From Thermococcus sibiricus MM 739 (GTDB lineage: Archaea > Methanobacteriota_B > Thermococci > Thermococcales > Thermococcaceae): DNA of 64,000 nucleotides. The stretch lies in contig NC_012883.1 in NCBI RefSeq assembly GCF_000022545.1, forward strand, positions 496,001 through 560,000, read 5' to 3'. The first letter of the stretch is position 1; each line of letters starts with the position of its first letter. Positions 16,998 to 59,109 of this stretch are shown one piece after another. The notes under the pieces were generated by a model. It searched no databases. It saw only the letters and a list, made by a program, of their open reading frames with translations, and was not told the origin of the DNA. Position numbers and translations under genes: made by a program.

Positions 16998-17684
16998 ATG
17001 GAAAAGATTATTGGCATACTAGGTGGAATGGGCCCGCTTGCAACAGTTGACCTATTTAGGAGAATAGTTATGAAAACACCAGCGAAAAAGGATCAGGATC
17101 ATCCAAGAATCATAATTTACAATAACTCCAAAGTTCCGGATAGAACAGCATACATTCTCGGTAGAGGAAAAGATCCCCTTCCAGAGCTCTTAGATAGTGC
17201 GAGAAAGCTTGAGAAGTGGGGGGCTGACTTTATAATAATGCCATGCAATACGGCCCATTTCTTTGCAGAAGACATTCAAAAAGCCATTAATATACCCCTT
17301 ATAAACATGATTGAAGAAGCTGCCGAGCACATAAAAAATTTGGGCCTAAAAAAAGCCGGACTTCTGGCAACAGAGGGAACTGTGAAAGGGTTGGTCTACC
17401 ACAGAGCGCTCTTGAAGAGGGGGATTGAGATAGCAGTGCCAAATGAAAAAGATCAAAAGGCGCTGATGGATGCGATCTATGAGGGCATAAAAGCTGGAAA
17501 TCTAGAATGGGGAAGGCAGAAGATGCTCGAAGTTGCCAAGAAGCTTGAAAAAAGGTGTGATGGGTTGATAGCAGGCTGTACTGAAGTAAGTGTAGCTTTA
17601 AGGCAAGAAGATTTTGAAGTTCCTTTCATAGACCCCATGGATGTTATAGCTGAAAAGGCTGTGAAACTTGCTTTAGGCCTATAG
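16998..17684 (+). CDS. aspartate/glutamate racemase family protein
   Basis: A 228-aa PLP-independent amino acid racemase. The start [18 protein letters not shown] and the first catalytic cysteine in MPCNTAHFF near residue 80, paired with the second in AGCTEVSV near residue 194, fit the two-cysteine mechanism of aspartate racemase. D-aspartate formation is known in Thermococcales. It may be co-transcribed with the corrinoid adenosyltransferase gene, although no metabolic link is evident. The ATG at 16998 is preferred over a GTG at 16989. Confidence 0.9.
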
Positions 17685-17747
17685 CCATTCTCTTTTAGGG
17701 ACGACTTCTTCCGGGAGGGAGGGATCCAAACATTCTAAAGGTGAGCA

Positions 17748-17763
17748 CCGAAAGGTTTAAATA
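17748..17763 (+). promoter_or_regulatory. BRE/TATA promoter in front of the omegaRNA-like unit
   Basis: The sequence CCGAAAGGTTTAAATACT forms a strong Thermococcales-type BRE and TATA box. A start of transcription would be expected around 17784, just before the structured GC-rich segment. No long reading frame follows, so this promoter would drive a non-coding RNA. Confidence 0.55.
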
Positions 17764-17783
17764 CTCTTGCTAGTAGTAATAAG

Positions 17784-17930
17784 TGGTTCGAAAATTTGAA
17801 AAGTAGCCTCCGATTCCGGGAGGATATGGGGTAGTGGCCGTGTGAACCGGCCGGTGAGAGTGAGGTTACTGGCAACAGGATGCCGGATGAACTCTCACGA
17901 AACCCCACCAGTAAGGTCGGGGTAGTTCAC
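17784..17930 (+). ncRNA. solo omegaRNA-like RNA of IS200/IS605 origin
   Basis: A GC-rich structured block in an AT-rich genome. GTGAGAGT (17854-17861) pairs perfectly with ACTCTCAC (17891-17898), an inner GGCA/TGCC stem lies between them, and a terminal imperfect hairpin AACCCCACC / GGTCGGGGTAG runs into GTTCAC at 17930. A 3' hairpin ending in a TTCAC-like sequence is typical of the right end and omegaRNA scaffold of TnpB elements in archaea. It has its own promoter at 17748. No tnpA or full tnpB is nearby. Whether the RNA is made, and whether it serves a TnpB in trans, is unknown. Confidence 0.5.
17800..17925 (+). pseudogene. remnant of TnpB C-terminal tail
   Basis: After the stop at 17797-17799 one frame is open for about 41 codons to the TAG at 17923. 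It reads ...VNRPVRVRLLATGC, RMNSHETPPVRSG, stop. The NSHETPxVRxG ending is characteristic of Thermococcales TnpB (OrfB) proteins, whose last codons overlap the omegaRNA. All catalytic RuvC residues and the zinc finger are absent, so no nuclease is made here. Confidence 0.5.
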
Positions 17931-17935
17931 AGCCA

Positions 17936-18036
<101 letters not shown>

Positions 18037-18141
18037 AAAGAAAAAAGTAACCTATTAGTTTTTCATTCAAGGATAACCCTTGGAGGCATTTAGCAAAGCA
18101 AAGTATTTAACATCAATTGCTTTGTTTATTACTAGGTAATA

Positions 18142-58062: not shown

Positions 58063-59109
58063 ATGAGAGAAGCAATGTATTGGGAGCCCCTTGAGGGGAA
58101 TAGGGTGAGATGCCATTTGTGCCCTTTGAATTGCATTATTAGTGAAGGGCAAAGGGGATCATGTAAGATTAGAAAAAATATTAATGGGAAGCTGTATGCA
58201 CTCAATTATGGGAAAATTTCTTCCATGGCTGCCGATCCAATAGAGAAAAAACCTCTTTATCATTTTCACCCCGGTTCATGTGCTTTTTCAATTGGCACGG
58301 TTGGTTGCAACATGCACTGTATTCACTGCCAGAACTGGGAGATAAGTCAGAGCAATGAGACTTTCCCCTACTTAGAGAATGCAACCTCTGAGGCCATAGT
58401 GAGATTGGCCAAACACTATGCGTGTGAGAGCATAGCCTACACTTACAACGAGCCCACGATATGGTATGAATTTGTTCTCGAGACTTCAAAACTTGCCAAA
58501 GAGGCCGGCCTTAAAAACATACTTGTAACAAACGGCTACATAAACGAAGAACCTTTTAGGGCCTTGGCCCCTTACATTGATGCCATGAACATCGATATAA
58601 AAGCATTCAGGGATGAGTTCTACAGGAAAATTTCAAAGGTTCCGGGGGTTGAGCCGAGCAAAAGAACGGCCATCATAGCCAAGAAAGAGTTTGGAATCCA
58701 CGTAGAGTTGACTTACTTGATCATTCCAACTCTCAACGATAGTGAAGAAGAGATAAGTGCCTTTGTGAGATGGGTAGGGAAGGAGCTTGGTGATGATACA
58801 CCAGTACACTTCTCCCGCTTCTTCCCGCACTATCAGCTTCTCTCTTTGCCACCAACACCAGTCGAAACCATTGAAAAAGCCTACCGCATAGCAAAGGAGG
58901 AAGGTCTAAAATTTGTTTACGTTGGCAACGTTCCCGGCCATAATGGAGAGTACACATACTGCCCAAAATGTGGAAAACCTTTAATAGTCCGGTGGGGGTT
59001 TACCATAGAGGAGTATCACATAAAGAATGGAAAATGCGAATACTGCGGTGAACCAATACCGATAATTGGGGAATATAAGAAAAAACATTACAGAGGGCTG
59101 TGGTGGTAA
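58063..59109 (+). CDS. AmrS-type radical SAM enzyme (AmmeMemoRadiSam system)
   Basis: A 348-aa radical SAM protein of the PflA-like COG1180 group. The iron-sulfur motif is CNMHCIHC within IGTVGCNMHCIHCQNWEIS near residue 85. The N-terminus has an extra cluster of cysteines (CHLCPLNC and C in GQRGSC), and the C-terminus a rubredoxin-like zinc site (YCPKCG...CEYCG). AYTYNEPTIWYEF is typical of AmrS. The partner Memo/AMMECR1 genes are not adjacent. GGTGGGA precedes the ATG at 58063. Confidence 0.88.
   Translation: MREAMYWEPLEGNRVRCHLCPLNCIISEGQRGSCKIRKNINGKLYALNYGKISSMAADPIEKKPLYHFHPGSCAFSIGTVGCNMHCIHCQNWEISQSNETFPYLENATSEAIVRLAKHYACESIAYTYNEPTIWYEFVLETSKLAKEAGLKNILVTNGYINEEPFRALAPYIDAMNIDIKAFRDEFYRKISKVPGVEPSKRTAIIAKKEFGIHVELTYLIIPTLNDSEEEISAFVRWVGKELGDDTPVHFSRFFPHYQLLSLPPTPVETIEKAYRIAKEEGLKFVYVGNVPGHNGEYTYCPKCGKPLIVRWGFTIEEYHIKNGKCEYCGEPIPIIGEYKKKHYRGLWW

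Follow-up and report, generated by a model that had tools for sequence, protein, structure and literature searches.

The stretch of DNA analysed here (the window, 64 kb) belongs to a genome that consists of a single contig of 1,845,800 bases and is labelled G000 in the following. At 17692-17930, the window carries a segment without any gene inside, which is assigned to a non-autonomous element of the IS200/IS605 type. The features of this locus are, from left to right:

17678..17682, plus strand: CCTAT, target pentamer at the insertion point, in the position of the TAM; the family consensus is TTTAT (from empty sites)
17683..17691, plus strand: AGCCATTCT, 9-bp extra copy of target sequence left of the left end, directly repeating 17931-17939
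17692..17930, plus strand: non-autonomous IS200/IS605-type element, 239 bp (left end aligned by eye, right junction exact)
17692..17722, plus strand: decayed left end, an imperfect palindrome (compared by eye with solo and tnpB-bearing left ends)
17750..17763, plus strand: BRE/TATA promoter GAAAGG-TTTAAATA (conserved among type B solo copies and before intact tnpB)
17801..17930, plus strand: omegaRNA-like scaffold (covariance model match, covariation in 49 solo copies)
17806-17811/17827-17832, plus strand: scaffold helix P1
17836-17840/17848-17852, plus strand: scaffold helix P2
17854-17861/17891-17898, plus strand: scaffold helix P3, the 8-bp stem GTGAGAGT/ACTCTCAC, with a possible kink-turn
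17902-17910/17915-17923, plus strand: scaffold helix P4, the terminal hairpin, imperfect in the window copy
17803..17925, plus strand: tnpB remnant, last 40 codons and stop, VASDSGRIWGSGRVNRPVRVRLLATGCRMNSHETPPVRSG (translated in the tnpB frame beside tnpB-coupled copies)
17925..17930, plus strand: GTTCAC, right-end terminus
17931..17946, plus strand: guide position AGCCACTCTTTTCTTT, the former target at the 3' end of corA (from empty sites)
17931..18001, minus strand: corA remnant, last 24 codons of a CorA-type Mg2+ transporter gene (by identity to the L077 gene)
18002..18050, minus strand: palindromic ends-only relic of about 50 bp from another IS605 tnpB family, GAAAGCCTCGCCCTTTAGGGCGGGGAGGAGGTCA (dozens of copies in the genome)

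The BRE/TATA box, the 8-bp stem, the terminal hairpin, the GTTCAC and the TnpB tail named in the original prediction are all present where it had placed them, and the nuclease is indeed lost at this locus. The extent of the feature could be refined, since the element begins at 17692 and is preceded by the 9-bp target copy. By eye, its left end aligns with a class of left ends in relatives, CTTTTT(G)GGAAGACTCC, that we term type B, and left end, promoter and right end all match tnpB-bearing copies, the ends being common to the autonomous element. The motif GAAARNTTTAAATAC occurs once in the window and in none of 100 shuffles. The same BRE/TATA motif is found at the equivalent place in sister elements, and the promoter of the window element is the one that precedes intact tnpB in L096, L097, L099, and L143. 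If active, it is predicted to start transcription near 17785. A scan of the locus for sigma-70 promoters and terminators, which is a type of scan unsuited to archaea, gave nothing useful. At the right end, GTTCAC or GGTCAC was found in nearly all of 84 counted copies, which had been chosen for a CAC ending.

Insertion site and flanking sequence

The locus is uninterrupted in six relatives, in which CCTAT, CTTAT, or TCTAT immediately precedes the bases found after GTTCAC in the window. This empty site, CCTAT followed immediately by AGCCATTCTTTTCTTTTGAAG with minor variants, lies at the stop codon of a racemase gene. As the empty sites show the junctions, the bases after 17930 can be identified as the guide position, in agreement with the prediction that the guide starts with the base after GTTCAC. 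In the window, the right junction is exact. On the left side, 9 target bases oddly lie between CCTAT and the left end; this second copy of AGCCACTCT has only a single counterpart in each of the six empty sites. We speculate that it arose when a break inside the target was repaired through microhomology to the CTTTT of the left end, as might happen after an RNA-guided cleavage.

For ten elements of the family, the joined flanks were searched against the genus. Gap-free empty sites were found for the elements in L069 (in G009, G000, and others), L084 (in G006), and L085 (in G011), and a near-gap-free site with a length difference of 1-3 bases was found for that in L083 (in G011, G000, and G003). 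All four sites lie 3' of TTTAT and show no target duplication. Recognisable left ends in the family are likewise mostly preceded by TTTAT, and most of 33 ends of the second architecture, type A, have T, T, A, and T as the four bases that precede the first C.

On the right side, the element borders on the corA remnant, which is 88% identical to residues 306-329 of an intact gene on the sister contig L077; the gene of the relatives is a CorA gene (Pfam, E 2.5e-60). It is intact in the relatives' contigs L077, L079, and L080, and is deleted save for its last 24 codons in the window genome, which has a 39% identical CorA paralogue at 643219-644100. The relic at 18002-18050 adjoins this remnant and resembles an element of the second IS605 tnpB family that is reduced to its ends. 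A weak Rfam match to HgcC at 17988-18084 on the minus strand lies outside of the window element.

Family architecture and scaffold RNA

The segment 17798-17931 has five relatives in its own genome with 84-90% identity, three of which lie directly downstream of C-terminal tnpB coding sequence. Family matches were found in 11 of the 13 Thermococcus genomes searched, the window genome included, with 24 matches in G003, 28 in G009, and 32 in G010. At E <= 0.001, the scaffold covariance model has a match in 42 of 81 Thermococcaceae genomes, some of the weaker matches belonging to related tnpB families. A single copy with a short tnpB tail upstream is present in P. abyssi (58853-58991, L202; chromosome G018, as we take it), and no relatives of the window element were found on plasmids. 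According to a motif test, about 77 right ends in the fetched Thermococcus loci have no tnpB upstream and 17 have one, a ratio that is approximate because the 77 include a few that are truncated, partial, or counted twice. The window element is a multicopy non-autonomous element and not a one-off gene.

Solo copies come in two common architectures and a rarer third one. In type B copies of about 245 bp, to which the window copy belongs, the left end and promoter of tnpB are joined to the final tnpB codons. Type A copies of about 272 bp, which include several in T. sibiricus, differ in their left end and carry a 69-nt leader containing two hairpins. None of the tnpB-bearing copies examined has this leader, the pairs of which are retained with few two-sided changes. 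The smaller versions of about 113 bp are devoid of a promoter (L022, L122). The 113-bp copies in L022 (T. sibiricus) and L122 (G009) are located at the same place, which identifies them as an insertion common to both.

A covariance model was built from 49 rows, the window copy included, and the window segment matched it with 141 bits (E 2e-33). In the 49 solo copies, standard pairs occupy 95.8% of the pair cells, and two-sided changes occur at 15 of 36 pairs in 78 cells. The percentage of pairing, the two-sided counts, and the covariation score were each reached by 0 of 500 shuffles, and the count of pair types was reached by 21 of 500, although this comparison is inflated by the relatedness among the copies. 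When the helix partners were slid against each other, pairing fell to 33-50%. The tnpB frame is lost in 23 of the 49 solo copies. In an alignment of 17 tnpB-coupled copies with the window copy, 16 of the 18 rows keep it open, and the other two stop a few codons short. A recurrent change of GCC to GCT creates a stop codon and retains the pairing as G-U. From these alignments, we conclude that the helices of the solo copies are kept by compensatory changes and are under constraint at the RNA level, as had been predicted for the structure; the compensatory variants could in part have been inherited from tnpB-bearing masters. The stems are conserved in relatives, and matches to tnpB right ends exist both in the own genome and in related genomes. 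Judged by its homology to these right ends and by a promoter like that before intact tnpB, the locus fits the proposal of an omegaRNA-like gene that has a promoter of its own and a TnpB tail.

The arm of P3, with GUGA opposite GAAUGA, resembles a kink-turn by sequence and is exchanged for a plain hairpin in some copies. Rfam 15 had no match at 17784-17930, even with E up to 1, and contains no entry for the family. The open-access literature that we searched yielded no description of it either, and the family is apparently undescribed.

Nuclease genes and known systems

Intact cognate tnpB genes with frames of about 425-453 aa are present in G003, G004, and G010, and the TnpB of L096 has the OrfB_IS605 and TNB domains. 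The tnpB of G001 is nearly complete, with a TGA reported within the match. In the window genome, the searches, on which the count rests, found three cognate tnpB copies, and all of them are broken: those at 650818 and 794267 have three stops each, and the one at 275266 has a frameshift that splits it and one further stop. The tnpB genes of L037/L038 are called broken because of their stop codons and not because of a missing zinc finger; its absence was rejected as a mark of pseudogenes, since intact genes in relatives have no finger either. TnpBs of the window family (L055, L058, L064, L096, and others) are without the CxxC zinc-finger cysteines (YTSKADALALEP...), and the L032 copy has them. 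The window genome also keeps intact distant tnpB genes of about 30% identity (the HgcC-type family, L034-L036). Y1 TnpA is encoded by one gene each in G000 and G003, and that of G000 lies beside a tnpB of the second, HgcC-type family.

In ISDra2, the scaffold of the guide RNA (reRNA or omegaRNA) is the right end of the transposon, overlaps the 3' end of tnpB, and the target lies beside the TAM. The window family shares this arrangement but has a TTTAT-like TAM instead of TTGAT, and the window copy is a solo gene. Altae-Tran in 2021 and Meers in 2023 are said to have described trans-acting omegaRNAs, guide RNAs of TnpB or IscB that are encoded apart from the nuclease. The window family resembles these in the separate location of guide and nuclease, and differs in that it is not known to have nuclease activity and in that the cognate tnpB copies of the window genome are broken.

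The closest precedent comes from P. abyssi, in which the repetitive intergenic RNAs sRk48/sRk52 and sRkB/sRkC are related to the 3' end of tnpB (OrfB), have BRE/TATA promoters and 5' triphosphates, were detected in Northern blots, are structured, and bind L7Ae (PMC3124441, Phok et al. 2011). As RNAs from tnpB 3' ends with their own promoters are thus known, the window family, which has the tnpB 3'-end relation and the BRE/TATA promoter in common with them, is a new family of a known kind. The P. abyssi RNAs belong to other tnpB families, and an identity of the window RNA with sRkB/C or sRk48/52 was rejected, the P. abyssi loci L198-L201 having no significant match to the covariance model of the window family, R1 (best E 0.9). 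The sRk52/sRk48 loci L200 and L201 match the region just 3' of the IS607-type tnpB in L031/L033 of the window genome; this sequence match suggests that sRk48/sRk52 are solo omegaRNA-like genes of an IS607-type tnpB family.

PATE-type IS605 elements, for example in Halanaerobium (271 nt), consist of a left-end hairpin, the last part of tnpB, and a full right end without genes (PMC7290912). The window family has the same composition, but differs in that it keeps the tnpB promoter, has dozens of copies, and includes a subset with an extra 5' hairpin leader. HgcC (Rfam RF00062), transcripts of which are found in T. kodakarensis, is likewise a thermococcal RNA associated with transposase genes (PMC4247193), but it is of another IS605 tnpB family than the window RNA. 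With scores under the gathering threshold, the Rfam model of HgcC matches the 3' ends of intact tnpB genes (L034 1298-1439, L035 1295-1410, and L036 1766-1908), and sot0042 matches two of these places. HgcC may, by these positions, be the omegaRNA or right end of the L034-L036 tnpB family.

Origin and possible function

We propose, with a probability of about 0.8, that the window element is a PATE- or MITE-like non-autonomous element of the IS200/IS605 type that is derived from a tnpB element through an internal deletion and encodes an omegaRNA-like guide. The deletion would have fused the left end and the tnpB promoter to the 3' end of tnpB, and the element would move by inserting on the 3' side of a TTTAT-like sequence, for which a Y1 TnpA would presumably be provided in trans. 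The promoter is predicted to give rise to an RNA of about 145 nt, with the omegaRNA scaffold and a 3' extension that reads the flanking site. Where an intact cognate TnpB exists, we infer that the nuclease would be loaded in trans with this RNA and guided by it to the empty target site, and such targeting would favour retention of the element.

The original prediction that the locus might supply a guide in trans is plausible for relatives with intact tnpB and many solo copies, such as G003. It finds no support in the window genome, given the frameshifts and stops in its three cognate tnpB genes, and the RNA is most likely an orphan there. A functionless relic has to be considered in this context, that is, a decayed tnpB element of which the right end remains, with promoter and stems as mere leftovers. 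Besides the broken tnpB copies, the decayed left end speaks for this possibility, as does guide position 6, which is a C in the window and a T in the ancestral target of the relatives and thus constitutes one mismatch. We take the relic seriously without holding it to be the probable answer, because the locus is an insertion that is absent in six relatives, and because the family was amplified without tnpB while its helices were kept. A loss of function after the insertion in the window genome is possible and would be compatible with a non-autonomous, guide-encoding element.

A more far-reaching and quite tentative idea is that, in genomes like G003, a few intact TnpBs are served by many solo omegaRNAs, each transcribed on its own, as a policed array of guides. 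The solo sub-lineage, having evolved a 5' hairpin leader of its own and variants of the kink-turn, as well as the 9-bp copy as a footprint of RNA-guided cleavage and microhomology, would belong to this picture.

The co-option that had also been suggested for the window genome, as a guide or regulatory RNA either for another TnpB of the HgcC type (L034-L036) or as an sRNA that binds L7Ae, is unlikely. Intact distant tnpB genes do exist, their right ends score weakly with the window-family model (29-34 bits), and the scaffold has a possible kink-turn, with tnpB-derived RNAs of P. abyssi being known to bind L7Ae (PMC3124441). However, the insertion is specific to the window lineage, the two tnpB families have strongly differing scaffolds, there is no second site for the guide in its own genome, and the ancestral target pattern had no match in viral contigs. 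As all three cognate tnpB genes found are broken and a second guide target is missing, an orphan is likelier than a co-opted RNA in this genome. A chance combination of a GC-rich fold, a fortuitous tnpB-like frame, and a TATA box, for which one could cite the only modest stability of the single sequence relative to shuffles (z = -2.25), is refuted by the many homologous copies, the direct homology to tnpB 3' ends, and the 141-bit match, with the homology and not the single-sequence fold being decisive.

The non-autonomous, guide-encoding element is of interest beyond this locus, as its family allows one to test whether the guide RNAs of transposon nucleases act and spread in trans. A single clade offers both situations, G003 with many solo guides and intact nucleases, and the window genome with solo guides and cognate nucleases that are all broken. 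If the idea of a dispersed guide array were true, one nuclease would police many addresses, each solo RNA specifying its own insertion site.
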